Below are positions 16,594-57,600 of a DNA stretch of 64,000 nt, one piece after another. Position 1 is the stretch's first letter. Each line of letters opens with the position of its first letter. Below the pieces are notes generated by a model. That model saw only the letters and a program-made list of their open reading frames with translations, did not search any database and was not told where the DNA came from. Source of the stretch: Scleroderma bovista. Taxonomy: Eukaryota; Basidiomycota; Agaricomycetes; Boletales; Sclerodermataceae. The translations under genes and the position numbers were made by a program. The stretch covers positions 1 to 64,000 of the forward strand of contig JAYMGJ010000019.1 in NCBI GenBank assembly GCA_037178675.1, read 5' to 3'.

Positions 16594-16599
16594 AAGTAG

Positions 16600-31376: not shown

Positions 31377-32463
31377 TCTCTTCAGGTTCACCCTAACCAG
31401 TGGAGATGGTCTGAGGGAGAATGTCCGCAGACAACATGTAGTCCAACGACTGTCATCTGAGTCAAGAAGCTGATTAAACTCAGTGTGTGGAAATGGACGC
31501 AGACGAGGGACCACTGTGACCACTGCATCGTGACCGTAAAAACGAGTGTTCCACACTCGAGCACACTGGCTGTCAGTCCTCGTGAGCCTCGGGTTGATCA
31601 AAAAAGGATTCGTAACAATAGCAGAGTAGAGTAGCTGATAGGGAAGACAGAAGACCACCGGGTGATTTTGATTTAAACAGATTGTGCGGAGGTGCGCAAA
31701 ACGAAGTTACATCTCCATCAGGCTTTGGACACCACGAGGAACTGGTGAGCGAGCAATGAGTAGCGGTAAAAATGCTGGGGCCCGAGACCAGATGATTGAA
31801 CGCATCCATGATGATCCGATCTCAACCCTGACGACGCTCTGGAGGGGCATGACGATAGCAGGATATGACTATGACCCACTTTGTGAGTCGCATAGGATGG
31901 TATGATGCGAGGGCAGCAAGCACGGGGATGTATGGGCCCAGTGCTGGTCCAATGTAGAGCAAAACAGGCCAGGAGAACGCAGGTGAGCGTGAGGAACAAA
32001 GGCAGAATCTGAGGGGCACATGAATTCCAATGAATGGGGCGAAGGGCAATTGCTCAGGACGTGGGTCCACAACCAGCACCACCACATGCAAGATGCGAGA
32101 AGTACTGCGGCGTCCGAGTGGCTGTCCACTTCTTATGTAATAATTGGTATATCTCAAGTACTGGCGCATTCGCGTTCAGATATTGCTTTTGAATCTGATC
32201 CAATGGCTGGTAAGTTAACGAAGTGCAGCACTGGTGTTCACATGGACTAAGGTACTATGAATCAGATGTTAGAACATCAATACTGTCTATGTCTACCAGC
32301 TCCTCTGATACATTTGGGGTGAAACGAGCGGCAGCGGCAGCAGCAGCAGATGAGGGTTTGACAGGTACTATGTACAACTGCTGAGACCCAGGGACAGCTA
32401 TATCTGAAGAGCTTAGCAGATTTTCCGAAGGAGATCGCATCAATCAAAGAGCAGCTGGCGTCA

Positions 32464-35550: not shown

Positions 35551-36235
35551 GGTCACTACTCTCCACGGAGCAAACAAAGGAGAACTCTGGCATGTGTGGC
35601 CCGAGAAGGGGGTGCCTATATATCAGTTAGTGTATCTGGTGTGTCCCCCAAAAATCAGCTTTATGTCTGATCAGATGTGGACAAATATGGGGTGTGACCC
35701 TCTAACACAATCCTCAACCTATACACTTCGTCATAGAAGAACATAGCAAAAAGACACATTTTCGCCACAGAAAATGGGAAATCCATCACCGAGGTTCTTT
35801 CAGTTTAAGTATCGGCATCCTCTAGTAACTCCCTGGGGAGACCCCTGGAGAGTCACGACATCTTTCATACAGAATGGCCGAAGGAGAGTCTTTTGAATAC
35901 CTTGGATAGTAGGCGGGTGGTAGGCAAATCTATTACATCAGGTGTGCCTTGAGGGGCTATGATAGATCTCGAGCAGTGATGGCTCCAGTTCTCTTGTAGC
36001 CCTTCAAGGAATACTCTCACTGAGCAGCGCAGAGCAAACCACTTTGGTAAGTACACCACCACAGTGGGTCATAGCATTGTCACCCCAGTCGAGTGCTCAA
36101 TCCTTGTCTGCTCATCCGTTCCCTATTCCTCGCACATCTGCAGTCAATGCTTTGTTCACACAAGCTTAACACATAATGCACCTGCATTGTCCCATACAAC
36201 ACGGACAGACGAAGCTGACAATCGGCCGTGCTACA

Positions 36236-38352
36236 TGACCAGCTGAGATAGGGCCCAGCCATGGTGCATCCCCATGTCATACGAGTGGGCTAATGGTAAG
36301 GTGTTTCACCATGCCATATTGGTGGCTCATGGAAAGGTTGTCACCAAGTAATATTGGTGGGCTGACACACTAGTACACTAGATCAGGATATGGCCTGTGG
36401 CAATAGGACCTAATGCGGCAAGGGAGCTGCGGCATGCGGCCAGAGGACTATATGCCGCAGATTCAGGCCGAGGATTGCAGGGGGCTTGCCGCAGCATTTC
36501 AGCAAAAGGACGGTAGTAAGTGCTGCAATGCGGCTAGCCTGTGGACGGGAGTCAATAGAAGGGCCTCTGTACCAGTGTCCCATGCTTTGCATTTGGCTGT
36601 GGTATTGGTGTCCTGTGCTTTGCATTGGGCTGTACCTTTGGTGTCCCTTTCTTGTTGCAGGGCCAGCCAAAGAAACAGCATCCCGTGCTTTCCAATGGGC
36701 TGCATGCATGGTGTACCTTTAAGAATACCCAGCCATGGGATTGGTGTCCCATGACTATGAGTAGGCCCTGGAGCCAGTTTCATCTATTATGTGCAGGGCA
36801 CATGGCAACAATAGGTACAATGTCCCATAGCATTAGGTGGGCCCTCAGAAAGGTGTTATCTACCTATATGGGAGGGCCTTGCAGTACACTTCAAAGTGAC
36901 AGGCTATGAATGCGGTGTCCCAGAGCATTAAGCAAGCCCTCCTTCTGGGGACACCTAGCTAGATGGGAAGGCCAGCTGATATGCTTCCCCTTCAGTATGA
37001 TCGGCCATAATGTTTGGCCTCCCAATATACACAGCAGGCCCTTAGAACTATATCCCTTGTATAAATGTAGGGCCGGGCATCTGGTCTTCTCTAAAGTAGC
37101 GGTAAGCCAGGTGTGGCACGACACAATCGGCACTACATGGCATTGGCAGAACACACTGTCGGCAGAACAATGCTGTCGGCAGAAGAAGGCTGTCGGCAGA
37201 ACACACTGTCGGCAGAACACACTGTCGGCAGAACAAGGCTGTCGGCAGAACACACTGTCGGCAGAACAAGGCTGTCGGCAGAACACACTGTCGGCAGAAC
37301 AAGGCTGTCGGCAGAACACACTGTCGGCAGAACAAGGCTGTCAGCAGAACACGTTGTCAGCAGAACAACGCTGTCGGCAGAACAAGGCTGTCGGCAGAAC
37401 ACACTGTCGGCAGAACAAGGCTGTCAGCAGAACACGTTGTCAGCAGAACAACGCTGGCGGCAGAACAACGCTGGCGGCAGAACACACTGTCGGCAGAACA
37501 AGGTTGTCGGCAGAACAAGGCTGTCGGCAGAACACGACTGTCGGCAGAATTGTTTTTCGGGCAATGTCGGATTTGAACCGACGACAGCAGTGGCACAACA
37601 TGTCATCAGCAATCTACCATCGGCATAATAGAATTGCGGCATTACAAGAACGGCACAACATAAATACTGGTAATGGCTGTGCAGCTATCGCGCAGGTGCC
37701 GCAATACCTTGCCGAGAATCACAAACGTGCTGCAGTAATAGCCGTGCGGCCATCATGCTTGCATGTGCGGCAATATGGGAATGACCGTGCCGTGTGGCAG
37801 TGTCGGCACGGTTGTGGACACCGGCATTTGCCACTGACATACTGGCCGGTGGCAGCCAGGCTGGTGGCTGTGCGAATAAGTACCGCAATGATAACATTAA
37901 ATTAATGATGGCCGTACCGCAATGACTGACATGCGGCATTGATCCCTTTCTCAAGCTGCGGCTGTGTTAATACATGCCGCATCGATTGTTCCCCGAGAGA
38001 CACACTCCAAAATAAGGCAAATCATAATGCCGATCCGAGATCCCTTATTATTGTGATGGGACAATGCACTGTGACAGCCAATCACAAGCAATAGAAACGC
38101 GGCCATCATGCAATATGAAATGCAGCAGTGTGGTTCATTAGCCGAATTGTCAGGACAATGATTGGTCGGACTTGTGGCTGAATTATTAACCTATATTTGA
38201 TTTAGTCCACTTTGGTGTGCGACCACAATGCAAACATGTTGTGGTGTGAAATGCTTATATAATACGTTGAACATCCTTCAGGCCGCACGGCAATCGGACC
38301 CAGTTCTTCCTCTCAACCACTGCTTTACCATTTCCACATCCTTACAGTCTAT
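36236..38352. other. left non-coding part of the KDZ/TET element
   Basis: No gene. At 36570-36960 a block rich in TGTCCCATAGCATT and GGGCTG words is repeated in the same orientation at 50360-50800, near the other end. Then follow the 37130-37560 array and a stretch of GCGGCA/GCCGCA words (37600-38150). Confidence 0.6.
37137..37560 (+). repeat. GTCGGCAGAACA tandem array
   Basis: About 24 units of GTCGGCAGAACA alternating with CACT or AGGCT spacers. The long Cys- or Gln-rich ORFs across it are repeat translations, not genes. Its position near the element end suggests transposase-binding subterminal repeats. Confidence 0.92.
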
Positions 38353-40319
38353 ATGGAAACTTCAGAAGGTTCTCAGTTCGTCTCCGCCTCATCCGTTCAA
38401 GAGGACATGTCAACGGCTACGTCCCTCACTGCAGAAGAAGTCGTCACCCAGGCCGCTGAAATAATTCAAGGCCGGATTGATGGCTTGAGAAGCACACGGG
38501 AGAAGGGTGTATGGTCGGAAGCAGTGTCAACTATCTGGGCCCAGGTGGTGCGTGGCAAATTTATCTGCAATCAATCAACTCACTGATTAGGATATGATAG
38601 CGCCGGGTCGAGAATGTCCTGCAGGAGTTACCTGCAGGATTCATTATACCGACTATCATCGTTGCTGCCGACCAGTTTATGGAGGCGCCAGAGGTGATCC
38701 TGTCGACAGGGAAGTGGCCTCACTTCCCGGACATCGTTAACGCCACGGACCACGATATCCGGGACCATCCCTGGTTCCAACTAGGCAAGCCGCAGAAGAA
38801 GGAGGACAAGGGAAAGAGGAGAGCGGTAGAGCCGTCGGGGAACAATGCAGTGGCAGGACCATCGGGGGTAAAGGAGACAGAGGTGCACGGCAGTCATGGC
38901 CAAGTAGGTGAGCCCAGTGAAACTGAGGACTCACAAGCAGTGCCAGAAGGAAGCCGTGCCATCGAGGATGATGAGGTGCCTAGGGGCCGCAGTCGCAGTC
39001 GCAAGCCGAGGAAGCGTGCCCAATCCGTCGCAACGATCAACAGCGATGGTGATGATGAAGAAGCCTCATCGCAACCACGGCCAAAGCGACCAAGGCCAAA
39101 CGTTCGTGACATGCAGACACCAGACGCAGGCTATGAGTGGGTGGATGACAAGGATCGCTGCATCAAGTGCGTACAGCGAGATCGACGGTGTGCAGCGAAC
39201 CCAGGCCGTGCTTGCTGGCAATGTTGCTGCAGCAAGATTGCATGCAGTATGATGATGGCAGTCAGAGCGAGGTCAAGGTCGCGTTCACAAGCACCGAGGA
39301 AACCTGCACCGCGTCGGCGTTCACCATCTGCGCCCTCAACGCTCAACTGAGGAAGGTCACAGCATGCAAAAAGCCAACGTCAGACCCCGGCACCAGCAGC
39401 GGCCAATCCGCCCAGGAAACCAAGTAAGTCGTTCATTATTCGAACAATTTAATATTATTTCTAGCGATATTCCATCCAGTTTTTGATGGGGTACTGATCA
39501 ATACTCCAGCATGGCTAGGGAAGACATCGAGGACGGCAAGTCCATCGTCAATGGCCGCCGGCAGTGGCACGAACCCTCCCACAACACCGGGAGACAGTAC
39601 AAATACGTCGAATGTACAAGATCTCGAGGAGGAGGTTGTCCGTTTGAGGGAAAAGCAGGCCGAAACGGAACGAAAGGTGGACGAAGCGAATGCAAGATTG
39701 GCCGTCGCGCTCGGAGAAGTCGCCAGCTTACGGCAGGTGGTTGAAGCGATGCGGGAACAGCTGTTCCCAACACCATCCCACCTTCAACGTCCGGCATCGC
39801 GGCAGGCATTCGCACCGACACAGCTGGCATCTGACTCAACATGTCCCGAGGTCTCGCAGTGCGCTCACCCCAGTCCACCAAGCCCGTTGGCACTAGCGCC
39901 TACCACAATGCTGGAAGAAATGGCATCGTCCAACAATCCGTCCCGACATGGCTCGAGCGAGCCGACCGGCACCCATGGTATGCAGGTTGCGCTGCGCAAC
40001 AATGCCTCAAGTCTGGAGGTGGCAACTCCAGGCTTGGTCGATGAAAGGGGTGCCAGCAAGCCAACTGGTGATAGCTACGACTGGGCCCCACCAAAAGGTA
40101 AGTCTGTCAATTACCAAGCCATGTGCTACTGATCACAAGATTGTGTTATTGACAGCGATTTGTGATGAAGTGGCCGCAACCATAGAGACCGGCAATATTC
40201 CAGCAATCGAGGTCAGCCCGCCGGAAGATGGAGATGTTGGGCCGGCATCCGATATGGAGATTGGGAGTTCCGATGCTGATGCCGGGCATGATGCCGGTGT
40301 GCAAATGGAAACGGACTAA
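38353..40319 (+). pseudogene. Cys-cluster + coiled-coil protein of KDZ/TET element (one in-frame TGA)
   Basis: Exons 38353-38544, 38601-39423, 39510-40097 and 40156-40319 keep one frame over 589 codons, broken only by TGA at 39348-39350 (codon 314). Residues 65-250: an N-terminal conserved-looking part (ENVLQELPAGFIIPTIIVAA), then a basic Ser/Arg region. A cysteine cluster CIKCVQRDRRC...ACWQCCCSKIACS follows near 275-300. After the TGA comes a coiled coil (DLEEEVVRLREKQAETERKV, 400-460), a Pro-rich part and an acidic end. If the stop is real, a 313-residue protein ending just after the Cys cluster results. The cluster-plus-coil plan resembles the antisense protein at 4365-5434. Function unknown; DNA binding is inference. 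Confidence 0.65.
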
Positions 40320-41385
40320 TTTTCTTTTATCATACCTACGTCTTTTGTACAATTTCCGCTTCCTATTCCATGTATACCATATACATCACATTGTAAAGTA
40401 TATTTATGCATGTAGAGTTGTCCTTGTGAATCATTGACACAGCCTGAGAACTCTGTCAGAGACATGCCAGTAATGGTCTCAACCACAGCCATGAATGCAT
40501 TGCCAATATGTCGCCGGCACATCCCAAATTTACCTGTGGAGTAACTTTTCAACGTTACTGATATACATGAATACCAAGAGCAGGCTAGATATGTCCTACA
40601 GATGTAACTATAATTGCCATGTATGGCGGCATCAAGTATTGGAAGGAGCAACATACTTTTAATCCACTGGCACAACACAATCAGCAGAACATACAAGGGA
40701 GAACATACACTCGGCACTGCATCAGCACATACAATCGGCATACAATCGGCACAACCACCGGCGGCATTACATCCATGCCGCTGCAACAGTGATCAGCACT
40801 TGCATAACATTGGCACTTGCAAACCATTCGCACAAGACACTATCGGCACAGCAACATCGGCACAACATACCATCGGCACAACATACCATCGGCACAACAT
40901 ACCATCGGCACTACATACCATCGGCACTATACTATCGGCACATCACACTTGTGACACAGCACACTATTGGCACTATGTACATGATACTATCCCAATCTTT
41001 CGCCGGCAAATGCAAGATTTACCTTTGCAGTAATTCTTCGATGTTACCGATATACATAAATAGCAAGAGTATCTATAATTGCCGTGGATGGCGGCATTAG
41101 GTGTTGATTGAGGTAACATACTGTAATCAGCACAGCATTCCATTGGAACATGCATACGGTAGACAATCGGCACACACCCCAGCGGCAGGACATACATTTG
41201 TAATACCATCAGCACTTGTATAACATCGGCACTTGCCGATACCTTTGGCACAACACACTATCAGCAAATCTTTCCAGTGGTGAGATAAATGAACTATATA
41301 TGGAAACCATTATTATATAATCATTCAATTGTGATTTCCATTCCACGTCAATTCCATCTTGTCAACTTGCATCTTTGCTACCACT
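40320..41385. repeat. intergenic; CATCGGCACAACATAC array and direct repeats
   Basis: Bases 40830-40950 hold a short tandem array of CATCGGCACAACATAC. About 150 bp at 40500-40690 recur loosely in direct orientation at 40995-41140 (TCGCCGGCA...GATATACAT...GGATGGCGGCAT). No gene seen. The 100 bases before 41386 may hold the promoter of the next gene. Confidence 0.6.
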
Positions 41386-42686
41386 ATGCCACCTAAGTCT
41401 GTCAGATTTGATAGCGCAAGTCCGCGGAAATTGAGTGAGTAATTTCTCTCCTCTGAGCTGATCTGCATGACATTGTTATCAGCCATTCCTGCACTGCCAG
41501 TGTGGCACCCGCCTCCATCCATTGTCGATGAACGCCTGCCATCAAGCATGGACTGGATGCCACCCTCTCCCCCACGCCACGGGATGCGCACAGGTGAAAC
41601 AAATGTGTCTGTGAGGAACAACGATGCAATGTCTGGGGACAGCAACAGACAAGCAACAGCGGCAAACAATCAGTTGCCAGCCCCCTCGCAATCAGCTCTG
41701 ATCAACCTCCCTGGCCCTTCAGCACACGAGATGCGTGCAGCAACCCCCACGACTAGATCCCAGGCTTGGATGCCACCGTCGCCTCCAATCGCTGCCAGTT
41801 CATCCAATGTGCCGTCTACCCTCACCATTCGGTCGCAGGCATCAATGCCACCCCCGGCAGCAATGCCAGCTACCCCATCGGTTCGGCCATCATCCCAAGG
41901 CACCCAACCGCAAGCATGGATGCCACCGTCACCATCCCCCACGATGGCCGCATGGATCCCGCCCTCTCCAGTGCACATGCCACGTATTGGGACGTCATCC
42001 CCATCAATGCCGGCATCCTCAGTCCCGGCATCACCGTCCAGCCCAGCATCACCATCCAGCCCAGCATCGCCATCGCTCCCGGCATCGCCATCCAGCCCGG
42101 CATCGCTATCTAGCCCAGCATCAAGCCAGCGGATTCCCACCTCCCCAATGGAGGCAGAATCATCTCCTGAGGCTGTATCTGGATCGCATGCACGATTCCG
42201 GGAACACGTGCATGCAGAGGATGGTAAGTCAGTATTACTGCAGGAATTATGTGTATTTAACAATCATCCAGTGGAATATTTTGAGATGGTGGACAGGATT
42301 AATGCATTGCATGAGCATTTGGATCCATTCCAGAGTGATGCGCTTTCATGTAAGTCTCTCTTGGGCTTGATCCATAGTATCAGTTGATCAGTTGTCATCT
42401 AGTGGCCTCTGCAAGGCAAGTTGCTACATCCGTCCCTCCTAGGAACTTGCCCGACCTACTCCCACTCGATGCCGGCCTTGATCACCCTATGATCGCGGCC
42501 TACATTCATTACGCAAACACGTTGCTCAACACCGCCAGGTTGTGGAGATCGGAAATGTGCCGGAGAGTGATGTTGGCAAATGTGCGGGATATGTTGGCTA
42601 GGTCAGCCCGACTTGGCGAGAATGGTGACATAATTGAGTCCGATCACCCTGAGGATGTGGTAGTATTAGATCCCTCCAAGCTGTAG
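41386..42686 (+). CDS. Pro/Ser-rich protein of KDZ/TET element
   Basis: Four exons (41386-41434, 41483-42223, 42272-42349, 42403-42686) give an uninterrupted 383-residue protein starting MPPKSVRFDSASPRKL. Residues 20-240 are low complexity, with repeated WMPPSP and about seven SSPASP-type repeats (ASPSSPASPSLPASP). The C-terminal 120 residues look folded: VEYFEMVDRINALHEHLDP, then DHPMIAAYIHYANTLLNTAR and RVMLANVRDMLARSARLG, mostly helical. No family recognised. Clean splicing and the absence of stops suggest selection, in contrast to its neighbours. It is transcribed in the same direction as the Cys-cluster gene. Confidence 0.68.
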
Positions 42687-42766
42687 TTTTGTTACAGTAG
42701 TGCGGCAATAAAATCTTTCGGCACAAGACATGGCAGATTTGACAATAGCATTATTCTACAAGTATA

Positions 42767-44713
42767 TTATTTGCGGCGTCTCTTTGGGCTGGGCGTAGGG
42801 ACATCGGCATCGGGCCGCTTTGGCCGCCTTCTTTGCCGTTCCGGTTGACTAGGCCCGGCAACGGCATTGACATGTTGAGCCCTGGCAATCCGGCATGTGC
42901 TGGCAGCCCGCTTCCCCTTGCCTCCAGAGTGTGTGGCATCATCATCCCCTGATCGACCACCCTCCATCCCATTTGTGTTGCCAATGGAATGCATAGTTAA
43001 TTCACCAACTATCATTTGTCGGAATTGCTCAAATGGATATTGAAATAGGCAAACTTACATTCCACTGGCGCATCGGCTGTGTTCTTTTTAACCCGGGGCT
43101 TTGGCTTCATCGGTCCATTAGCATTGACGTTGCCGGGATCCATATGTGCTTTTTCTTATATGAGAATACGTGCCATTTCCAAGTAATTGAGACCAATACC
43201 CACCTTGCTGTTTAGGTTCGGCCGGCTGCCGTGCCATCAGTGCCGCTGATGCTCTTCGTCAAGATGGTCCCACCGGCATAACAAAACCAAGCCCCACGCA
43301 CCATTTTCCTTAGCATTATGTCCATCTGAGTCATCCTCTATATATAAACTTCATATTCTGACAACAAAAATATTCAAAGGAACTGACCAGGCTGTTCAAT
43401 GGGCGTTGTATGGCTTGCTGACAGGGATGTTCCAAATGTAGGAGGATCAAATGCTTGGAATACGGATGGGGCGTACCATCATCCTGGTTTGACCGGCATT
43501 GGTTTTTGTTTGTTGCACTGGACTCCCTCTCCTCTGGGGCCTCTTCTTTTATGCATGTCAATGGTTGCATAACATGGTTGAAAGATCCATACCAATTGTG
43601 CGCCGCCTCTTCCGACTGCTTGGGAGTTCCACATCTCGTGCCACAGGTTCTTTGAACCAGTCAAAACAAGTTGATAAAAGTATTCAGAGCTAACCTTTCA
43701 GGGGCGGCTTTGCTGCACTTATCATTCCGGCCACTGAGTCCTCACAATCTGATACTGGATCTTGTAATCCACCATCCATATCTCTCCATTTGTGAAATGT
43801 CAGTACATCTTCCGGATCTGTCACTTGCCTATCGCGCCAGAATTCCAGTACCTTTGTAACTTCCTGATTTGTGAGCCGGGTCGGCTCTTTGAACTCCCAA
43901 TGCCGCGGCAGGTACACAGATGAAATGTAGATACCGGTCTTTGCATGTATGGCAGCCCAAGGAACACTTGCACTTGGCTTGCCGCATGCCTTGCCTGCGG
44001 CAAGGGGTCAATTCTCCGTCTATTTACAAGGAAGAACTTATGATAATGCCATGTCACAAAGGTCCTCATAACATCCTTTCTCTCCAATGCTTGCATATCG
44101 AGGATGATCGGAATCATTGGTGTGCCATCTTCCATTGTTGGTAAAACAGTTTGCGGCCTCTTCTGCCCTTTCTTCCGGCAGAGCGTCGGTCCGGCATCTT
44201 CATCGCTATCATCGTGTTCTTCCCCTCCTATGGCCTGCTGTGCATAGGCATCCCAGTGGTGCTTGATGTCATCCCAATCGGCAAAGGTCTTCCCTTGTCC
44301 CAATGCCGAATTAAAGTCGTGCCTGTGAATGTGAGTATACAAATACCACAAGTGAGAAGTGACATACATTCCCATCATGGGCTGACCATTCCGGCCCTTC
44401 CATGCCGCCATCACAACCACCCGCATCCCACACTGCCGCCACATTTCCTGCGCAAACTGTTTGACATATTGTCGGCCTTTTGTCTCGGCCATTCTGTTTG
44501 CAGATGAATAATTGTCGAGATAACATGTCAAACTTACTCGGCCTGGACCTCTGCCGGCGGCTGCTCCTCGTTCCATTCATCAGCCTGCTTTGCCGCAGCA
44601 TCCCTTTCCTCCTAGGTGAGCTTCCCCATGATGCATCCTACCGCCTTTTGGTAGCCTTTAGGCCGCGTCGATGGTGAAATTATGGAGACTCTCTGGTCCT
44701 CTCTTAACATCAT
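42767..44713 (-). pseudogene. uncharacterised basic-tail protein of KDZ/TET element
   Basis: From ATG 44713 the frame runs 33 codons to an in-frame TAG (44612-44614) and continues in the same frame beyond it (EERDAAAKQADEWNEEQPP). Later exons read MAETKGRQYVKQFAQEMWRQ, ADWDDIKHHWDAYAQQAIGG, RKDVMRTFVTWHYHKFFLVNR, YLPRHWEFKEPTRLTNQEVT and FWRDRQVTDPEDVLTFHKWR. The protein ends in a strongly basic tail (RQRRRPKRPDAD, PSPKRRRK) at 42767, a likely nuclear signal. At least five introns occur and some junctions near 43975 are unresolved. I do not recognise a family; it looks like a nuclear protein of some 450-500 residues. Confidence 0.5.
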
Positions 44714-44796
44714 TTTGCCATCGGCCCGCGGAATGGCAACGCCGCATAGACAGGAGCTGCTTGATTTTCAAATGAATGACAACAACTTCTTAAAGA

Positions 44797-45432
44797 TGGT
44801 GCGGATGCCAACGATGCTCTACATGAACTAAGGGTTTCGCTGGCACACAAGGCAGTCATCTTCCGGACCGATGTCAGACATGCCGGGACATACAATATGA
44901 CTACGAGGGCCTGGGGGAAGGTGGGTAGTGCCGATGTGAAAGTGCAGCGGCATGCGGCAATATATCGTCGGTGCCGGAAACAAATGATAGCATTGAATGC
45001 AAGCGGCAACACATTGAACCGATACAAAATGTTGAGGAAAGAAGACCTAAAGATCAGTGCAACCATTGCCGACCCAAATGCAAGGGGTCATAGGGATGAC
45101 ACTTTGGCCTGGTTTTGGACAATGGATGTGCCGCGGGATACAGAAGTCAATGATTGGATGTCTGAATGTAAGATGATTGCTCCTCATGTTAACACCAGCT
45201 GACATGTATAGTTTACCGGGTGCATTGGTTGAGGGCGAAAGCATTGCGAGACAGGTGGGACGAAGAGGTAAAACTATTGACATGTGAAGCCACGTGGACA
45301 AGACAATTTCTTTCGTATAGGGAAACACTTTGGAGAGATCAGAAGGAGGAGGCTAATATGAGCAGAGAGATGGGGAGAGCATGCTATGCAGCAAAGCAAT
45401 GTCAAATGTATGGTAGACTTGGTTGTGTATGA
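44797..45432 (+). pseudogene. C-terminal remnant of a KDZ transposase
   Basis: Two exons, 44797-45167 and 45212-45432, read as the C-terminal helical part of KDZ transposases. The match runs DALHELRVSLAHKAVIFRTD, TRAWGKVGSADVKVQRHAAIYR with a RCRKQMIALN stretch, then VHWLRAKALRDRWDEEVKLL, T-x-RQFLSYRETLW and CYAAKQCQMYGRL. The family normally has 700-1000 residues with CxC zinc domains and a DDE RNase H-fold core in front. None of that is found: upstream on this strand is the antisense gene 42767-44713, and a TGA lies just 5' (44779-44781). The element therefore cannot make its own full transposase here. Confidence 0.7.
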
Positions 45433-45849
45433 TTGGCATTGACCATCGGCATCAAATACCGCTATATGGTATGCAAAGAGGACATATTTGAAACGGATCA
45501 TCAAGTGGCTGTTAGTGGAAAAAACAAGGTGCAACTGCAAGGTATTTATGGGGTGCATACCTTGGAATGAATGGATGATGGAATGGGAGGGTCATGGACA
45601 GTGGCACATAGATTCGCTGGTAGCCGCAATGGCAAAGCCATGCACCAGCAGCAATTGAATGCCATGCATGAACACCCTTCGGCCAATATGTAAATATAAA
45701 TCTGCCAAGGGAAGATGTGCAAACATGGGCCTACCGGCCATGGTCCTCGTAGTTCCACGACTGCTGGAATTGATAACAATCAACTACCGCAGCTAGAAAC
45801 CATTGTGTGCCGGTGCAACAGCTAGCTATAACATATGTGCCGTAGTTCA

Positions 45850-47160
45850 CTGCATCAATCATGCTGTTGTGTAGCGGCGTGTCAGGATGTTTCCAGCAGC
45901 GTGTGCCGCAATGATGATGGTGCCGAATTGTTGATTGTGCTGGAATGTTGACTGTGCCGGAATGATGATTGTGCCGAACGGTTGATTGTGCCGGAGGGCT
46001 GACTCTGCCGCAATGTTGAGCCAGAATGGTGATTGTGCCGAAATGATGATTGTGCTGCAGTGTTGGCTCGGCCGCAATGTTGCCTGTGCCAGAGGGTTGA
46101 GTGTGCCAGAGTGTTGACTGGGCCAGACTAATGATGGTGCCGACGGAGTGTTGATTGTGCCGGCCTGTTGACTGCCAGGATGTGGATCCTGCTGGAGTGT
46201 TGACTGTGCCGCAAGGTTGATTGTGCCGGAGTATTGATTGTGCTGGCCTGTCAACATTACAGCAGAGTCAACACTGCGGCACAATCAACCCTCCAGCACA
46301 ATCACCGTTCTGGCTCAACATTGTGGCAGAGTCAACCCTGTGGCACAATCAACCATTCAGCACATTCATCATTCCGGCAGATTCAACAGTTCGGCACAAT
46401 TATAATTCTGGCAGCGTGAACTAATCTAGCATCAATCATGCTGTTGTGTAGTGGCGTGTCAGGATGCTTCCGGCAATGTGTGCCACAATGATGATAGTGC
46501 CGAATTGTTGATTGTGCCAAACTGTTGACTGTGCCGGAATGATGAATGTGCTGAATGGTTGATTGTGCCACAGGGTTGACTCTGCCACAATGTTGAGCCA
46601 GAACGGTGATTGTGCCGGAGGGTTGATTGTGCCGCAGTGTTGACTCTGCCATAATGTTGACAGGCCAGCACAATCAATACTCCGGCACAATCAACCTTGC
46701 GGCACAGTCAACACTCCGGCAGGATCCACATCCCGGCAGTCAACAGGTCGGCACAATCAACACTCCGTCGGCACAATCAACACTCTGTCGGCACAATCAA
46801 CCATTCGGCACCATCATCAGTCCGGCCCAGTCAACACTCCAGCCCAATCAACACTCTGGCACAGTCAACACTCCGGCACAGTCAACACTCCGGCACCATT
46901 ACCAGTCCGGCACAGTCATCATATGGACCACTCATCGGCGACAGTTTCTCCTCAAGGCTGATGCAACTCGTGTGAGCTTCTCATCATTTTCAGTGTCGAC
47001 AGGTTCCATCTTGATGCGCGTTGGCCGCCCCCGGGAATACTTCTTGCTCTGCCAGTCATGTCCGAGTGAGGGTGCGTGGTGGGCAGTGCTGGAATGCCGA
47101 TCCTGCCGGAGTGTTGACTGTGCCGGAATGATGAATGTGCCGCCCTGTTGAATGTTTACA
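45850..47160. repeat. palindromic GTTGAcTGTGCCGGA satellite
   Basis: Degenerate 17-20 bp units of GTTGATTGTGCCGGA and its complement. The array contains large inverted repeats: about 46200-46330 pairs with 46560-46690, and CATCAATCATGCTGTTGTGT recurs at 45854 and 46431. Every frame stays open for long stretches (Gln/Ser/His strings), so ORFs here are artefacts. It separates the transposase remnant from the TET/JBP gene. Confidence 0.85.
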
Positions 47161-47347
47161 CTTGACCAAGCCGGATCATTGTGATCATGCCGGAATCGAC
47201 TTTGGGCTCGCCGAGCGGCACTACATCCCATCGGCACAACACACGTTCGGATAGTATCTACTACAAACTACTTCCAACAAATTTGGACTACATACCATCA
47301 GAATTACATTTTAGTACAACAAACAATCATATCAGGAAGCTAATTAT

Positions 47348-48717
47348 TCAATGCTTCACCAGTGCATTGCGGACATTATCTGGCGTCACCCAATCAAGAG
47401 GCCGTGGCACCCTCAACCAATGGTGAATATTATCCCTCATATAATACGCCAAACAGCACCTCGCTCCGTCAACCTCGTTGACGCCGTGCCGAAAGAGCCG
47501 GCTGGAAAATGCAACGACAGTGCCGGGATTGTACAATACCTGAATCCCAAGACTGGGAATGTGCAGTGCACAATCATCATAATTACCGACACTGACTAGC
47601 ATGTCATACCAATCTGCTCGAGAGTGTGGGTCCCTGTGGAGGGGGGTACTTCGATTGACAATTAGCGAGATATTGGTGAAGACAGTGGACCAATTTTCAA
47701 GTGCCGCCAGCATTCCGGGATCATGGCCGGTCGCCCAGTCAGTCAAGTGTTGCATGGCAAGGTGGCCGGCATCGTATAGAGGTGGATGGATAATAGAAAG
47801 AACACCTGAAAGTATTGCCGACGGAAGACATATATCCTTGCTCCATTGATAGCCGGTAGGACCGGCCAAAGCCTTGGACACCCCCGGAATGTCATTGGGG
47901 GTCTAGCAGAAGATCAAACAAGTGCATCATCAAAAGAAGGAAGGTACTCACAGAATGGCCGAGCATGTGCCGTGCCGGAGAGAATTCCAAGCACCCGAAA
48001 ATATCCACGTCATCCTTGAAATACTGGTGTGTTGTACGCCATGATTGATTAGTAATACTCTCTTCCAGTGGATCTGCAAGTGAATCGATGGATGCCGCGA
48101 TGTGCTCCTAGAAACAAAGGCCTCAACAGTGGACAATGAGAGTGGAATGATACCATACTTGGATGCAGGGAGCTAGAGCTCCGGGAAGATACCACAATGC
48201 AATTGTGTCACCTTCTCCCAGAATAATGGTGGGCCGGGAAAGGGTCCCAGTCAAAGAGGAAGGATGTCTACGGAGGACCCTAATCTCCTGTTGCTCATTT
48301 GTTCCGGATTGCATTGGTCCGAGGCTTTCAGACAACCTAATCAAGTCAATGCCGCACGAAACTTCAGTGGATATCAAGCAAGGGATAATAGAACTATAAA
48401 AGAATTGGCTCACTCCGATTATGGTATGCCTGTGTGATGGTGGATACAATTTGGTTCATGGCTACAGTTGCGTCCACCGGCAGGGACAGAAGTGTTTCCG
48501 GGGTGGGGGAATTTAAGTCTGGGAATGCTTCATTCAGGAAGCGGCGCCGCATATATGATGCCATGATGTCAGACAAAGTATAGTTGGATGGCACGGCATT
48601 TGCACCGGCCATTGGAAACAGGACGACTTTTGACAATGTGGGGAGTAAAAATTTTAGTGGGGGATGTGCGGCATCCTGCGGACATCTGTTTGCAAACGGC
48701 AATGCAACACATTCCAT
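47348..48717 (-). CDS. TET/JBP-family 2-oxoglutarate/Fe(II) dioxygenase
   Basis: Oxidises 5-methylcytosine (TET) or thymine (JBP) in DNA, using Fe(II) and 2-oxoglutarate. Exons 47348-47902 and 47952-48107 are clear, then 48159 to about 48400 and 48400-48717, with one upstream junction unresolved. Core residues are seen. The iron-binding HxD is in PLHRDPHSRADWYD (47630-47645), the distal His in FRHGVNEVDG (47488), and the 2-oxoglutarate Arg in ARCCLAYYMR. The strand ALHIPSLGIQVLYNPGTVV lies between. The upstream GEGDTIALWYLPGAL, NQSWRTTHQYF and GCLEFSPARHMLGH motifs match the agaricomycete TET/JBP group. No stop interrupts the core. It stands beside a KDZ remnant, as is typical. Which base it acts on is not shown by sequence. 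Confidence 0.88.
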
Positions 48718-48887
48718 TCTCGGCTAGATCCACTAAACAAGGCTGATCGGCGATTGGCCGGTGCGAAACAACACATGCCCGGTTGCACAATGTGGTAATT
48801 ATGCATCAGGTGACATGTGGACCGTGAGAACATTGATTACCTGAATGTTATAAGGCTTAGGGCGAATCGGCCATCACACCATCAATC

Positions 48888-49672
48888 ATGAATACCACAT
48901 CCGAACTGCACGAAACCTGTGAACTGTCCATGGTATTGCAATACGTTGGAGTCCGCTTTCGACAGATGGTGCACGCGGTTCAACAACAGCCCGAGGGGAT
49001 GCTGGCCACAGCTGAATGGTATGCAAACGTACAAACGGAAGTGGTAAGTGGAGAATGATTACATTTGATTAACACACTCATGAGCCCCCAGGCAAATTTA
49101 GAACGTGTGCTTGCCGCATGCCAGGCTATGGGTGCGAAGATGATATTGCCAATGATGGCGAGCAGGGTGCACAGAATGGTCGTACTAGAAGATCTGCCGC
49201 TGGCAAGACTGTATGCGGCAATGCAGCAGTTGAACGTCTATCATGCGAAGGCCGCCGAAGTCCAGGTTCCAAGTACGCTTCAAGTGGCAAACTCGTGGTG
49301 GGTAAATGGCCACGGCCCATGTACGGCAGGGTACAGCACGCGGCCGCTGCGGGACATGGTATCGGAGGCAGAGGCATTCTTTCTGCCGGACCTGGTATGC
49401 TCCCTTATCCGTGTTGTGTTAGATACTAAAGCTTTTCCAAGGTTGCTGATAGAAAGGTCACCATTCTACTCACCGTTGGGTATACCTCCGACGAGGCCTT
49501 GTCAAATGCACGGTACTTCTGCGACAATATGTTGCGGAGCTCAGACAATGCCCTCAAATATCATATAGAGGTGATGCAGCATTGTGCAAAAAGGATGGAG
49601 GACATTGAGATGCTAACCCGTGCACCAAATGCATTGCGGCAGAAATGGGAGGAGTCTTTGGGTGGTAGGTAA
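48888..49672 (+). CDS. 229-residue protein of KDZ/TET element, no family recognised
   Basis: Three exons, 48888-49043, 49092-49394 and 49442-49672, all in phase 0, form a complete frame from MNTTSELHETCELS to the TAA at 49670. It is mostly helical by appearance (VLQYVGVRFRQMVHAVQQQP, LERVLAACQAMGAKM), with a central VANSWWVNGHGPCTAGYSTR motif and a cysteine/histidine-containing last exon (ARYFCDNMLR, VMQHCAKRMED). It is divergent from the TET/JBP gene and separated from its start by 170 bp, so the two may share a bidirectional promoter. No stops or frameshifts. Function unknown. Confidence 0.68.
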
Positions 49673-51137
49673 ACATTGTATGAATACCTACATATATGTT
49701 CATCACAACAATAATTGGTTAATCAAATATCGGCCAAAGCGACACATGTGATATAATGTTGCCGGCCAAAGTCTGAGCTGCGGCTGCAACACCCGGCCAG
49801 GTTAACAATGAGGCAGAAATCACACAGGGAACACATCGGCATGAATGGGAATAGCACATGTCTGGGTGGAGGTGTCGTCCGCATCTTCCAATACAATGGG
49901 TGCCGCAAGTTGATACCTTATGCCGGTCGTCAAGTTTGCGGCTGTGATGGCTGTAACCAATCATGGCTGGGCGGCAGTGGTGGCCTCCACTATGACAAGT
50001 ACAGCCGCGGTATCACGGCAAAAGAAAGGTATGCCACAGCAATGCGGCCAGAGAACCAGGGATAGCCGCTGCTGCCGAAGGACTGTTAGCAGCATGGCGG
50101 CCAAAGCAGCAGGGTAGCCATGGAATTGTGGCCAAGGGGCTAGAAGTAGCAGAGTAGGCCCCGCCTCCTGCAGTTCCCAAGGCACGCCGCTAAAGTGGTG
50201 TCACACAATGTGTCAAGCCCCATATGATGGTGTCCCATGATTACATAACAGCCCCAGGTGCCGTATCATCTATAAGAGCAGGAGGCCCTGGATATAGTGT
50301 TCTCTATTCTATTATAGAGCCCAACAAATAGGAGTGAGTAGGAGGGCTGCAGTGCCAGTGTCCCGTGCTTTGCATCAGGCCCTAAATATGGTTTGCCATT
50401 TCTGTTGGCAGGCCAGAGGAATAGTGTGTTTCGGGCTTTGATCAGGCTGTAACAACAGAGTCCCTTTCTTACCAAAGGGCCATGGAACTATTGTCCCTTG
50501 CATTCCAATGGGCTGTGCAGAGACTGTACCTTTAAGGGGTGCTAGCCACAGGTGTGGTGTCCCATAACTCTGGGCAAGCCCTGGAGACAGCGTCATTTAT
50601 AGTCAGTGCGCCCAGCTCAGTCTGACAGGCAATGGCCATGGTATCCCATAGCATTGGGCAGGCCCTAGCAGAGGTGTTATCTAGCTATGCAGGCAAACCT
50701 TGCAAGTACATTTTAAAGTGACAAGCCATGAATGGGGTGTCCCAGAGGATTAAACAAGCCCTCAATGTGGGAACAACTATATAGTTGGGAAGGCATGTGG
50801 ATAGGTGTCCCATTGAGTGCGTTGGGCCACAAAGTTGATCTCCCTGTATACCCATTAGGCCCTAGATATTATGTCCTCTATATAGATGTATCGCCGTGCA
50901 TATAGTGTTAAGTAACTACCGTTAGGCCAAGATCTGGCACGAGGAACCGTCAGCACTAAATTGATGCAGCAATAGATGCGGCCAACACATAACACCTGGC
51001 ACCACATATCGTCGGCACCACATATCAGCGGCACCACATATCAGCGGCACCACATATCAGCGGCACTGCATATCAGCGGCACAACATCTCATCGGCACAT
51101 CATCTCGTTGAACATGCCGGAGTGTTGACTTTGCCGC
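49673..51137. other. right non-coding part of the KDZ/TET element
   Basis: No gene. Contains GCCGCA-rich sequence, the direct repeat of the left end (50360-50800), and a small array of CACATATCAGCGGCAC (51003-51075), four units, close to the right terminus. Confidence 0.65.
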
Positions 51138-51405
51138 TGTAGAGACAGTCCTGTCTCTAGGTGTAGAATTGGTAGTACTGATACTGGACTCTTACCTTAG
51201 CTATGTAGGCTTGTACTTAGCTTACTAAGCAACTTCCCTCTTTCCTCTGTATATGTTTGATCTCAGTCCTGGAGTGACTGAACACCTCTACTCTCCCTAC
51301 TTCCTCTAGTCTCCCCAGTCCCTGGGAGCTCTGCCAGACCTCCAGAAGCCCCTGGGTCGAGCGTGCCTCACCTGAGGCAGCAGCAACACCCAACCCCCCC
51401 CTACA
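51138..51405. mobile_element. solo LTR inside the KDZ/TET element
   Basis: 268 bp from TGTAGAGACAGTCC to CCCCTACA, flanked by CCGC on both sides (51134-51137, 51406-51409). The surrounding TTGCCGC...ACTGTTGACC reads as uninterrupted satellite once it is removed. No coding capacity. Confidence 0.6.
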
Positions 51406-51770
51406 CCGCACTGTTGACCATGCCGCAATGCTGATTGACCGGCTCACTATGGTGTTATTGCTGCCGTCAGATTTCACCCCACTGCCTCCATTGCATACTG
51501 GCTCACTTATTCTATTGGTATGCTACTCCTCTCAGCCTGAGTATTTTCATGACGACACCCATTTGTCCGGCTTAAGACTTTCACCCTACCCCGTGATGAC
51601 AACAGAGCCATGGGCCCACCGTTGTCACTTGGTGACAATGCTGTCGGGGGCTGACCCCTGTGATACGGCAAAGCTCTAGTCATAAGCCTCACTTCCGCCA
51701 GCCCGTGTAGCACGGCCGATTGTCATCGTCCGCTGACCGTATAACACGGCCTACCCAGGTGCATGGGCTC

Positions 51771-52569
51771 AGCTTAAGCGGTATGTCACATTGGAAAGAG
51801 CTTCAATATTGTGTCCTGACGCACAAATTCAGGACAATCGATGCCAATATCATGATTGAACTTGACATTCGTGTTGGCAATACAGGTAATATAGTTCCAT
51901 CACAGTTCCTGTTTTGGGAAACTTGGTACATATCTGCCACACCTTCATGACCTTCGGAGGACAAATGGTGTGCAATCTACGTGATTGAGTATTCAGCGCT
52001 CAGTGTTGATGTTATTGATAGCGTTCCACCAAATCCTTGCTTTTGAAAATGCGAAGAACATCATTGTATTACAGGGTTTAAGTAAACAAAATTCTCACCC
52101 ACCATGGTGGTTACTTGCTTTCCTATTTTCTCAAAGTGCTTGTCAGGGTGGCCCAATATCAGCCATCTGCAAGTGCCCTGGATGCATCCCTCGAAACCAT
52201 TGTGGGTCAGGATGGCAGCACCATCAATTGTGAAGCTGGTACCATAAAGGGGGTGAACTGACTATAGGTAAGTGCCCGACTGCTAGCCATTGCACTGATC
52301 ATGGTAATGAAGCGCAACAGTAATGTATGCTGTCAAATCGTTATTCTCACAAATGACTGTCCACACTCTAGAGGTTTGTTGGCCTGAGATGCGTATGGCA
52401 TCCCCGCGTGCTTTGCGGCATCCCACAATGTCCTTTTGTCTTTATGGAGAGGTAGTGATTTGTTTTCGAGCTTTGAATGTTTGATTTACAGCTTCAGTTC
52501 ACGGCTGCAGCCCATTTACATTCCAAGAAAACTCTACTCACTGATGCCATTGATTAAGTCGGTTGCTGT
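51771..52569 (+). repeat. inverted segmental duplication, arm B, distal part
   Basis: Reverse complement of 22314-23112. Six differences from arm A, all transitions in which one copy has CpG and the other TpG or CpA (near 51870, 51997, 52065, 52514, 52520, 52561). Confidence 0.93.
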
Positions 52570-53135
52570 GTGTACTGACCGTGGCACTGTAATCGTTGAT
52601 CCCCAAAAGGGAAGATAATTGTTTTGAATTATTTCTCTTTATTGCTCACCAGTTCTATGCAGCATGACGAAACCAGTCATTGCAGTCGTTCCAGACTTCA
52701 CTGGCGCCTCCTCAAAGTCAAATATGACAGACCTGGAGGCTCACTATGAGAACACCTGCCCACTTGGGCATATTCGATACAATGCATCTGAGTTGATGGC
52801 CATAAATGACAGTAAGCTATTCTAAAGTCAATGTATGCATGATAGAGATCTTTGTCTAGCCATGAGTACTAGATGTTACACCACGACGGATGGTAAACCT
52901 TCCCCATGACTCCAACTTCATCTGATGGGAGATCGAGGCAAGTTCCTTACTCCGCACATCGCATGTTCTTCTGTTTTCCTCCGAGTTCATTGAAGTAAGG
53001 GATACGCGGACTGGGAGACTTGATCAAGTCATTGAGGGCATGGGCATTCGACCGCTGTACACTCCAAGCTCGCATGCCATTCCTTCTCTTGTTGCATGTG
53101 GCGTGGTGAGAAGAACAATGAGGACGGGTTAATTG
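52433..53135 (+). pseudogene. CNH-domain (RhoGEF-like) gene, 3' part
   Basis: Exons read LYSLMPLIKSVAVCTDRGTVIVDPQ (52510-52610), then VIAVVPDFTGASS..NTCPLGHIRYNASELMAIND (52670-52810), then VTPRRMVNLPHDSNFI. An in-frame TGA follows at 52923-52925, where the family has the Arg of an RWE motif, and then FSSEFIEVRDTRTGRLDQVIEGMGIRPL (52980-53060). This is the citron-homology (CNH) beta-propeller end of fungal Rho guanine-exchange factors. The first exon lies in the duplicated arm; arm A holds its truncated twin at 22314-22447. The rest of the gene (DH, PH domains) is not seen, so this is a fragment. Confidence 0.6.
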
Positions 53136-54719
53136 AACAGGTCTTGGAACTTACTGATACAACAGAACTTACACTATGACACCAGCTTCGGGGAGCTTTG
53201 CACCTCCCGATATCTGGGATGAGTGGGAGTGATACATTTTTGATGCAACATGGATTGTGCAGACTACTAAAACATTGAATTAATTGAAATCGCAGTCCTG
53301 TAGCCAAAGCATGCATCGGATTGTTGTGGACTTCTTCGTCACATCGGATATTATAATTGCGCGGTGGTAACAGTGATGCTTGAGCAAGACAGATAAGGAA
53401 AATTAATGACAACCTACTACTAAACAACATCACCCCTGCTTGCCTCACTTGTTCAAGTTGGATGACACCAGGTTTCCGTCTTCGCATTCAGGCTCCTTCC
53501 GTTTGCAGTGTTCAAGAGGAATATAAAGTTTGGTATCCCCAGCGAAATTCATAGCTCATTCTAGTGCATCGAGAAAAGAATCTGTGAGATCCGGAAGGAA
53601 ATGTGTGTAATTGGGCGAGAGTGATGTTTCCATGTCGCGGTATGACTTGACCAACCGTCTATGAATTATTTTGGCATAGCCGATTACATGCCAGAAAATT
53701 GTGGGAGCATCCACTTTCAGTGAGGTTAGAAGGTACCGCACCCGCTCCACGGGTATGTACATAATCGGGGAACAGCGATCAAAAAGCTTTGGCTTGTTCA
53801 GGTGGGTGCATTTTGTGATCCTCGTCAACATAGAAGTACATGACCCAGACCCAGACCCACCACAATGACTCAAGATCGTGAATAGCATCCGTAATCTAAC
53901 AAAAATCTATCTGAGCTATTACGGCTTTATTCGTGCCTTTCGGGACATTTAGGACTTAGTGCACTTTTTTGGCGAGGCAGCCAGCAGAACTTAAATAACG
54001 TGACTCACGGAAAGTAAATTAAGTCCAGCAGTTCATAATGATGTCACGATAAGTCAAAAGAGTTTGCAACATTGCTACAATGTCGGAAAAGTGCAGAAAG
54101 ACTGTATTATACAGCTGTTACAGAGGTGTATCTAAGACAATAAATAGGGTGCTGTTGTCCTCCTGTTTCCGATTGTCGCTGCCAATACCAAGAGCAGTGG
54201 AGGCAACGCGAGGGCATGGTGCGAGTGTTGGAGCAATACCTATCTATGTAGAGGAACTGCTACTCCTGCTCACCTGTTGTGTGGAGGGGACAAGCTGAGA
54301 TGATAGTGGTAGCTGGTCAAGAGCTGTTATATTATGTAAGCGATGTCCGCTGTTTATATACAACAAATAGTGTGACACATGACTGTGACATGTGACATGT
54401 GACATGTAACATCTACTCTAAAGAGGACTATTACTAAGTCTACACTAATATGGGTCGCAGTCTTGTGTGCACTTCATTGACGGTTTACGCCGGGTGCATG
54501 TGCGACTTCAACAGTGAGTCTGAAGACATGCTCAGGCTTGTCCCCTGGAAGGATGATGGTTCATCCACAATTTTTTTTGCAGTGTTGAGGCGAGGGAACC
54601 ATGTTGGGATCGATAGTAACCTCCCGAAGTGCATTGGGAGGTCTTAGTTGTTGAACCAGGGTCTCCGATGGCCTAGAAAAATCCATCAATTAATTGCGAG
54701 AACATCAAGATGTGCCCAC
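53136..54719. other. no recognised gene
   Basis: Minus ORFs at 53487-53029 and 53888-53556 (110 codons, RVRYLLTSLKVDAPTIFWHV) match nothing I know. Bases 54180-54650 are a decayed copy of 54850-55035 (GCAGTGGAGGCAACG..GAGTCTGAAGAC..), and AGTTGTTGAACCAGGG recurs at 54647 and 55527. The region looks like repeatedly duplicated, decaying gene sequence. Confidence 0.4.
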
Positions 54720-55306
54720 TCACGTCATTGTAATGCCTTGCGACACATTGGCTAAGCCTCCGCTAAGACTGATGTTACCAAGGCTTGTATTATTCTCTTT
54801 GTTCTCGGGCCCAGTCCACACAATACTTCTCTTGGACCACCCAAGGGCTGCGCGACGAGCAGTGGAGGCAACGTGAGGGCGTGGTGGGAGTCTGAAGACG
54901 TGCTTGGGGTCCCCTGAAATGAAGATTGGCTTTTCATCTGCAAATTTCTCGCAACGTTGAGGCAAGGCAATCATGTTGGGATTGAAAGTAGCCTCTTGAA
55001 GCACATTGGGGATCAATTGGACTGGGGGGGTATTGGAAGCGGCAGTGATAGAGTTCACTATGGCAGCCCTCAGCTGACCATTGGCAAGGGAGAATGAAAA
55101 AGAGGTCTTGATGGAGCGAGGATATGGCGAGGGCTGACTCCCAGCTCTTGAGCACCCATGTCAAAAGTCAGATGGAAGCAGATGGTAATTCTGGATGGAA
55201 TGTTTGAGTAGCGCTTGCATTCCAGATCAATGACAAGGTGGATCAAATGCTGCAAAATAAACAATGTCAATTGAAACCATATGTTGGAATATTCATGGAC
55301 ATACAT
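54720..55306 (-). other. unrecognised ORF pair
   Basis: The minus frame 55058-54720 (112 codons; FNPNMIALPQRCEKFADEKP, FRLPPRPHVASTARRAALGW) may join an upstream frame at 55306-55070 by an intron. The protein is Pro/Ser/Asn-rich at both ends. A partial decayed copy lies at 54180-54650. No family recognised. Confidence 0.3.
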
Positions 55307-55479
55307 TGCATGGCAAAAAGTGAGAATGGGGTGTCCACCCAGGTGTGCTTGCTCTCAGTTACAGCATCCTGCACCTCATCCCTAAGAGCATAGCACTTCC
55401 GAAGTGCTCAGATTCCCCATTTGTCGTCCCACAAGGAAAAAGAATCTACTGATGACGTCTCTGGGTCGACAACAAACAC

Positions 55480-56700
55480 TCAAGAAGGGCCTATTGTTTT
55501 CGTCACCGAGTTGGGGAGTTGAAAGGTCTTAGTTGTTGAACCAGGGAAAGAATGATCAGGTGAGTTGAAGGGCGACAAAGACCTCATTTTCTCCTCCTCA
55601 ATGGTTTTGTATATCAAGGTCCTGGACACCCGAGCCTGTGAGATTCTTTGATGATGTCCATGACCGCACACACGGGGCCGCACGTGATCAAAAGTAGTGT
55701 TGGCCAGAGGGTGTGTAGCATTGGCAAGCATGACATTGAGTTGTGTGAGATCGATGCTGGACTGTGAACCCTCTGAGAAAGAGGAGTACCCATCAGAAAT
55801 GGACAGTGGCAGGGTCGCTGCTCCCGAGCTGGAGGTGCATGTACTAGAACAAGAACATGTCATGACTGGTGGCCAAGTGAAGACAGGTTGTATTTGGACT
55901 AAAAACAGAGAAAGTCAATTTAGGTACAGAATAATTGGGGGGATACTTACAAGAACCAGAGGTATCTTCTCCTTCGGCCTGAAGTGCCATGTTCTCCAAG
56001 CTCTGGCGTTCCAAGAGGCCATGCTTTGTGCGAATCATATGCTCATCTCCAAATTTGAATGAGCTCAAGGTAGAAGCAATGGATGGCTTTGTTTTGATGA
56101 TGCACGACTTGTCAGGGGACCAAGGGAGGTGATGCAAGCTGTTGATTCATGACGCTGGTGACTGCGATTGTAGGGATGAATTTGTGAGTGGGCAGGGGTG
56201 CAGAAGTAGGAGCTGGATGCATCACTACTATCAACTCATGTGTGGCAGGGCTGCTTGTGGATAAATGAGAACATGTCGTTGACACTGGCGGGAGTAGGGT
56301 GTTGTCGCAGATGACCTCGCTGGCCAACATGAATGCGGATACGGAGAGACAATGGCCTGATAATCCCTGTGTAGTGAGAAAACAAGCCTTGAGTCTTTGA
56401 AGGAGGACAAGGGCCACAAAAGTGACCAGGGGGTCACTATCGACTCGTTTGTGGCAGGGCTGCTTGTGGATAAATGAGAACATGTCATCAACGCTGGCGG
56501 GAGTAGGGGGTGTCATCGCAGATGACCTTGCTGGCCAACATGAATGCAGATATGGAGAGACGATGGCCCGATGATCCCCGTGTGGTGAGAAAACAAGCCT
56601 TGAGGCTTTGAAGGAGGACAAGGGCTGCAAAAGTGATCAGGGGGTGTGGTTTCGTGCGATGGAGGGCATATATGATAAAATAGGGCAGCTTCACTGTTGA
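55480..56700 (-). pseudogene. cyclin-like gene with duplicated cyclin-box exon
   Basis: On the minus strand, two copies of one exon about 205 bp apart code for PLITFAALVLLQSLKACF..FMLASKVICDDT (about 56640-56510) and PLVTFVALVLLQRLKACF..FMLASEVICDNT (about 56435-56300). This is the core of the fungal cyclin N-terminal fold (normally LQRLKARFP..SAFMIASKVICDDT). Part of a third unit (FIHKQPCH) follows. The copies lie in different frames. Downstream exons (56150-55925 and 55874-55480, with a GTAAGT..TTTAG intron) code a Ser/Thr-rich tail unlike usual cyclins. The C-terminal half of the cyclin box is missing. Non-functional or rearranged. Confidence 0.55.
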
Positions 56701-56769
56701 GCCAGAAGAGTATAGAAGACAGAAGACAGCAAGTGCTTACTGGTATCACATACCTTGGCCATGAGCTAG

Positions 56770-57592: not shown

Positions 57593-57600
57593 GACACACT

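Follow-up and report, generated by a model that had tools for sequence, protein, structure and literature searches.

A family-specific CGG-containing word in a TET/JBP-carrying, Kyakuja-like transposon of Scleroderma bovista and its possible reading by an element-encoded protein

In a 64,000-nucleotide stretch of Scleroderma bovista DNA (assembly GCA_037178675.1, contig JAYMGJ010000019.1, positions 1 to 64,000; hereafter the window), positions 36170-51770 hold a complete-ended DNA transposon of 15,601 bp, which carries a TET/JBP dioxygenase gene and is dense, in coding and non-coding DNA alike, in one five-letter word, TGCCG/CGGCA. Two sister TET families of the same genome, as well as a Gypsy retrotransposon in the window, are enriched in words of their own. 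As the best explanation for the whole, we propose that the word is a family tag, which a protein encoded by the element would read and through which it would recruit TET for self-specific anti-silencing; we give this proposal about an even chance of being right. A wider reading, in which DNA transposons and a long terminal repeat (LTR) retrotransposon each bear a private CGG-containing word, genes included, that an element-encoded Gal4-like protein reads, and in which the TET families would be programmable family-specific demethylases, is put forward tentatively, as possible rather than probable. The word analysis rests on one genome, two partial sister families and one Gypsy family.

From dinucleotide composition, 36.2 sites of TGCCG/CGGCA would be expected in the window copy and 44.7 in C342, a full copy of the same family; the counts are 192 and 231. 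When the element (192 in 15.6 kb) is compared with the rest of the window (53 in 48.4 kb), TGCCG ranks first among the 512 pentamers, and no further base is strongly fixed in its flanks beyond the five. Its density in C342 is 12.9 per kb outside the tested exons and 9.1 per kb within the 7,172 bp of exons, with same-strand spacings that peak at 16-17 bp. Part of this is arranged in arrays: a tandem array at 37104-37550 (no strand assigned) has CGGCA each 16-17 bp (family D2), and repeat arrays at 45869-46929 (no strand assigned) have TGCCG/CGGCA in 17-bp steps and in both orientations (families D1, D7 and D12). Excluding the four array regions of C342 leaves 119 sites. The excess also exceeds codon choice, the exons of C342 containing TGCCG 65 times compared with 29.4 (standard deviation 4.8) under synonymous codon shuffling, a count reached by none of 1000 shuffles, and a coding scan of the same copy again placing it first among 512 pentamers (z 7.7). 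Crowded in one family and scarce in the other DNA compared, the word is distributed like the motifs of VANC-type anti-silencing: VANC of the Arabidopsis VANDAL elements binds to motifs that are specific to a family and build up tandem repeats (PMC5735166).

The words differ between relatives. In the sampled stretches of the two sister TET families (3391 bp and 3101 bp), ACCGGT occurs 14 times in the first and CCGCGG 16 times in the second, where the sites are dispersed at spacings of 77-396 bp and five of them fall inside the gene D span; TGCCG stays near expectation in both stretches (6 and 5, counted on both strands). Divergence of the motif between related families, a second feature of the VANC type, is thus seen in two sister families, over 3.1-3.4 kb each. 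The comparison Gypsy, a chromodomain element on the minus strand at 3577-11247, is saturated with TCCGG/CCGGA (122 compared with 23.2 expected), and a second copy, 92% identical, has 130 compared with 26.5. Here, too, the excess is found in coding sequence, with TCCGG at 60 against 22.7 in pol and 20 against 9.2 in gag (none of 1000 synonymous shuffles reaching either value), and with first rank among 512 pentamers in a coding scan of the two copies (80 against 32.0, and 85 against 33.1). The TCCGG-rich zone extends beyond the LTR to about 12.4 kb, the site of a 17-bp array.

Across families, each word peaks in its own. The largest off-family density is that of TCCGG in C342, at 3.5 per kb compared with 16 per kb in the Gypsy, and it arises in part because TGCCGGA holds both words. 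In the stretches outside transposable elements (23113-32094 and 52570-64000) no pentamer has a z above 5, and the best value in the six long open frames (putative genes) found there is 4.1. All four words, TGCCG, ACCGGT, CCGCGG and TCCGG, include CGG or CCG, which is present in 8.6% of all pentamers and 11.2% of all hexamers. The Gypsy itself encodes reverse transcriptase, RNase H, integrase and a chromodomain.

One alternative takes the excess as a by-product, either of mutation (CpG surviving in one context), of tandem-array expansion or of codon bias. CpG is depleted in the window copy (observed/expected 0.67) and decays fast, arrays do exist, ten of the 14 ACCGGT sites lie within a single one, and other words are raised outside the tagged elements, both in 11170-22313 (CGACG, z 17.7, and CAGACCA) and in 1-3576 (z up to 9.1), and look like simple and 61-bp repeats. 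We compared CpG decay among 13 copies of the element, arrays excluded. CpG had changed to TG or CA in 652 of 6,524 non-tag cells and 167 of 1,483 tag cells, other cytosines having changed in 134 of 77,426, which corresponds to a roughly 60-fold hypermutability of CpG in which the neighbouring bases matter little; tag and non-tag CpGs do not differ in rate (Fisher p 0.15). With the tag CpGs as prone to decay as the rest, an origin of the word from protected CpGs is rejected. Since the tags mutate in resident copies, it must be in the spreading lineage that their excess arises and is maintained, and the smaller share of differences at tag CpGs between the two Gypsy copies (19/119 compared with 150/514 at other CpGs, p 0.003) is what would be expected if the lineage keeps its tags. 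The exon excess that survives synonymous shuffling, the sites left in C342 without its arrays and the dispersed CCGCGG sites all speak against a by-product, as do the off-tag controls in the Gypsy pol, where TGCCG is not raised (3 compared with 7.1) and only ACGGA among eight other CpG pentamers is, mildly (17 compared with 10.3). We consider this alternative already largely refuted and very unlikely.

If the word is read, gene A of the element (plus strand, 38353-40319; exons 38353-38544, 38601-39423, 39510-40097 and 40156-40319, mapped from C342) is the candidate reader. Gal4-type proteins bind CGG and share the cysteine spacing CX2CX6CX5-16CX2CX6-8C. Within 39108-39302, gene A has C-X2-C-X6-C-X7-C-X2-C-X6-C, with all six cysteines kept at each of the 11 fetched loci that have the stretch, and this is followed by a probable coiled coil, judged by eye and from weak coiled-coil-type Pfam matches. 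The Gypsy has accessory open reading frames antisense to it at 4197-5434 (plus strand), in which C-X2-C-X6-C-X11-C-X2-C-X6-C follows position 4853. None of 20,000 shuffles of each sequence reproduced the Gal4 spacing, and a metagenome protein keeps the cysteine cluster. As seen from their sequences, the two proteins are suggestive, and only suggestive, as readers of CGG words. In the literature searched, mostly outside subscription journals, we found no description of family-specific words or of an element-borne zinc-cluster reader in fungi. The antisense accessory gene of the Gypsy also includes an Ala/Glu/Arg-rich stretch.

The proposed mechanism would run as follows. The KDZ transposase would, as we partly infer, move any DNA that has the right ends and leave a 7-bp duplication. 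The family carries TGCCG, at about 12 per kb in coding and non-coding DNA alike, as its own tag, and an element-encoded DNA-binding protein, most likely the product of gene A with its Gal4-spaced cysteines and probable coiled coil, would read this CGG-containing tag and so mark the copies of its own family. TET would then oxidise 5-methylcytosine at the marked copies, opening them for transcription and transposition, and the divergence of the sister families in their tags would let each serve itself. The identity of the reader, the recruitment of TET and the anti-silencing outcome are the inferred steps, and the function is suggested by analogy with known systems.

Several observations weigh against this proposal. 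Gene A has no match to Pfam Zn_clus at E 10, so that we call it Zn2Cys6-like only, and the Gypsy frame scores 12.6 bits where the cut-off is 21. AlphaFold models of the cysteine stretches, made from contiguous translations only, were poor, with a predicted local distance difference test score (pLDDT) of 61.6 for gene A and 65.1 for the Gypsy frame; they matched no PDB fold at E 0.001 in Foldseek, and VIA, run on the Gypsy stretch only, gave nothing usable. Two Scleroderma homologues of gene A, as annotated, miss most of the cysteine cluster. The clustered ACCGGT sites and the raised words outside the tagged elements belong here as well. TET was not found in the Gypsy, and tag and TET are therefore separable. 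Finally, CpG transitions are present at 10% of the CpG cells of the 13 copies; resident copies thus decay at CpG, so that any protection is not lasting, and the suggestion in the first-pass annotation that the element could protect its own copies from silencing stays a supposition. The ratio of non-synonymous to synonymous CpG transitions in resident copies, 0.95 for TET and 1.47 for gene D, shows no constraint.

Some of these points would also fit an ordinary TET-carrying Kyakuja element with an untargeted TET, in which the tag is a site for another function of the element, served by its transposase or by an element-encoded transcription activator. Transposases with repeated binding sites exist, and a tag in a Gypsy without TET can serve a role apart from TET. 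PMC12730594 in addition suggests non-target-specific oxidation by the AG-type TET of Agaricomycotina, which likewise tells against our proposal. The tags are, on the other hand, spread across the whole element and its exons and not just near the ends, and the pattern recurs in pol and gag of the Gypsy, an element that lacks a DDE transposase of this class. We regard this explanation as rather unlikely. Alternatively, the reader of the tag might belong to the host and be either an activator or a silencing factor from which the element has no escape. Zn2Cys6 regulators are numerous in fungal hosts, and binding of the tag by element proteins is our own supposition; words that change family by family and are near background outside transposable elements fit co-evolving proteins more easily, and we consider a host reader improbable.

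The first-pass annotation had delimited the element as one unit with an AGCTTAA duplication and an empty site, and the alignment of flanks and arm bears this out. The 7-bp target-site duplication AGCTTAA stands at 36163-36169 on the left and at 51771-51777 on the right (no strand assigned), and the inverted arm A of the window has a single AGCTTAA at 23106-23112 (minus-strand reading, no strand assigned), where the arm pairs I1 and I2 overlap. When reversed, arm A is continuous across the insertion site and aligns to the element's flanks with 99.95% identity on the left (4075 bp) and 99.25% on the right (799 bp). The left terminus (36170-36244, plus strand) starts with CACATAATGCACC and the right terminus (51696-51770, minus strand) ends in GGTGCATGGGCTC. 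That the termini match in inverted orientation holds in so far as they share an exact 20-bp block, where 500 shuffles gave at most 11 bp; the repeats are nevertheless imperfect, since only 51 of the 82 columns in the alignment of 75 bp from each side are matches.

The search for further copies in the host assembly (51.8 Mb, 850 contigs), which had been proposed as a check, found the left end at 40 places at least (the best 40 of 136 candidates) and the right end likewise at 40 or more (the best 40 of 103), which shows that the ends are not chance, and pairing of the two lists gave 12 further copies, 13 with that of the window. Five of the 13, the window copy included, have an exact 7-bp duplication, and the eight without one may reflect assembly faults or recombination. 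Nine long uninterrupted copies among those fetched measure 18.5-20.5 kb each; C131 has 13.5 kb and C496 11.5 kb, and C76 reaches 26.5 kb because a Gypsy of 7,868 bp is inserted in it. This nested Gypsy, at bases 6833-14700 of C76, is complete, has the duplication ACCAC and sits in a full-length Kyakuja copy. A TET exon about 58% identical to that of the window family has a left end of this family within 0.7 kb of it (C754:3549-4802), perhaps through nested insertion or as a hybrid.

The gene order of the full copy C342 is A (+), B (+), C (-), KDZ transposase (+), TET (-) and D (+). The window copy misses the equivalents of C342 8265-11159 and 11310-12082, and hence most of the transposase; it is a transposase-deleted derivative, by inference mobile only with the help of full copies, a loss that the first-pass annotation had missed. 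The transposase remnant had been recognized correctly and consists of two pieces, 150 bp and 393 bp, at 44659-45199 (plus strand), and the KDZ domain itself is present in C342 (PF18758, E 1.3e-29); the first transposase exon tested is missing from three of the 13 copies. The four accessory genes initially reported are all present, although in the window copy gene A is interrupted at 39351-39353 by an in-frame stop that had been overlooked. Gene A was found in 12 of the 13 copies and is stop-free in nine of those 12; TET is stop-free in all 13 and gene D in 12, all these counts being made on C342 columns, to which insertions are invisible. Three of the accessory genes had been left without a family. 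This remains so for gene B (main exon 41443-42382, plus strand, Pro/Ser-rich) and gene C (main exon 43824-44576, minus strand), neither of which has a Pfam family, but gene A has the Gal4-type cysteine pattern and relatives in Scleroderma citrinum, and gene D (48888-49672, plus strand; exons 48888-49043, 49092-49394 and 49442-49672; 229 residues, open in the window copy) shares 31-38% identity (E 1e-20 to 1e-27) with proteins that adjoin TET in the two sister families, and has relatives in S. citrinum and Pisolithus tinctorius. Taken by themselves, these relatives would place the host probably in the Boletales, close to the two species.

The TET/JBP gene (47348-48612, minus strand; exons 48414-48612, 48159-48361, 47952-48107 and 47348-47902) is open in the window copy and matches PF12851 (E 1.1e-17). 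As had been read from the sequence, its metal- and 2-oxoglutarate-binding residues are in place: in the alignment to CcTet (E 7.4e-29), HxD (as HRD), the distal His and the equivalent of Asp337 are kept, with Ser at position 331, and these are all the residues by which AG-type TET is recognized (HxD, distal His, Asp337 equivalent and Gly or Ser at 331; PMC12730594). The host genome has at least 149 matches to PF12851 above the cut-off (149 of the best 150 of 159 candidates, some genes giving two matches), compared with published counts of 74 TET/JBP homologues in Laccaria bicolor and 47 in Coprinopsis cinerea (PMC8889193). At least 60 TET matches are 89% or more identical to the C342 exon over at least 136 of its 184 residues, 12 of the 60 with stops, and the other host matches listed belong mostly to families at about 53-65% identity to that exon. 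The element is a multi-copy, TET/JBP-carrying KDZ DNA transposon of Kyakuja-like type.

The remainder of the window contains a large element at 2767-22313, whose 201-bp inverted ends are nearly identical and in which 61-bp repeats form inverted arrays. It holds a Tc1-like DDE_3/HTH frame (15463-16281) as well as the Gypsy, and the search for target duplications within 3 bp of its ends gave none that reached 4 bp. The inverted arms, 22314-27180 and 32095-52569, are 99.95% and 99.25% identical, and a different large element borders or interrupts each of them; a recent inverted duplication might explain the arms, as might a haplotype or assembly fault. The spacer between them has an amino-acid permease exon at 29134-29709.

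A family word offers a testable answer to how a TET borne by a transposable element could favour that element over every other methylated repeat. If true, fungal elements would follow a general code of self-recognition by which they un-silence only themselves, the VANC principle would reach beyond plants into fungi and apply to two element classes instead of one, and natural pairs of a short DNA word and its reader would become available for epigenome editing. The word is also a simple means to delimit and classify elements.

Among known systems, TnpA of maize Spm/En is an element protein with a link to demethylation, and it binds to a repeated motif that contains CpG; that motif is subterminal, whereas the word of the window family is element-wide. 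With the Gal4-type Zn(II)2Cys6 regulators, the candidate readers share the cysteine spacing, and the tags contain CGG/CCG; they differ in that gene A and the Gypsy frame have no Pfam match above the cut-off, and a likeness in fold would be a presumption.

With the TET-carrying Kyakuja elements of Agaricomycetes (PMC12730594), which occur in Boletales among other listed orders, the element shares a KDZ transposase, the AG-type TET residues, the 5' CA terminus and the duplication of 7 bp, the length given there for Kyakuja as opposed to 8 bp for Zisupton and Dileera. Two Laccaria bicolor Kyakuja families end in CA..TG and have no terminal inverted repeats, a trait not given as defining all Kyakuja, whereas our element has CA..TC and imperfect inverted termini, and we accordingly class it as Kyakuja-like among the KDZ elements. 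Since Kyakuja elements that carry TET were published in complete form, 7-bp duplications included, in 2025 (Kojima, PMC12730594), the view that a delimited TET/JBP-KDZ unit is undescribed is out of date, and TET as a means for Kyakuja to escape silencing has been proposed there already. The accessory genes A-D and family-specific words find no mention in the parts of that paper available to us, passages on motif and tandem repeat included. Its statement that hypermutation is undetected in Agaricomycotina is qualified by the CpG decay among resident copies.

The closest likeness in working principle, and a likeness of working at most, with no claim of membership, is to VANC. In VANDAL elements (PMC5735166, PMC10398659), as in the window family, a family-specific short motif is dense, partly tandem and different between relatives. 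VANDALs belong to another transposon class and another kingdom, and the VANC motif is mainly non-coding, whereas the word of the window family is also found in exons; the window family further has a TET enzyme on board, and its binding protein is a candidate only. By this comparison, the word system may possibly represent sequence-specific anti-silencing of a new sort.

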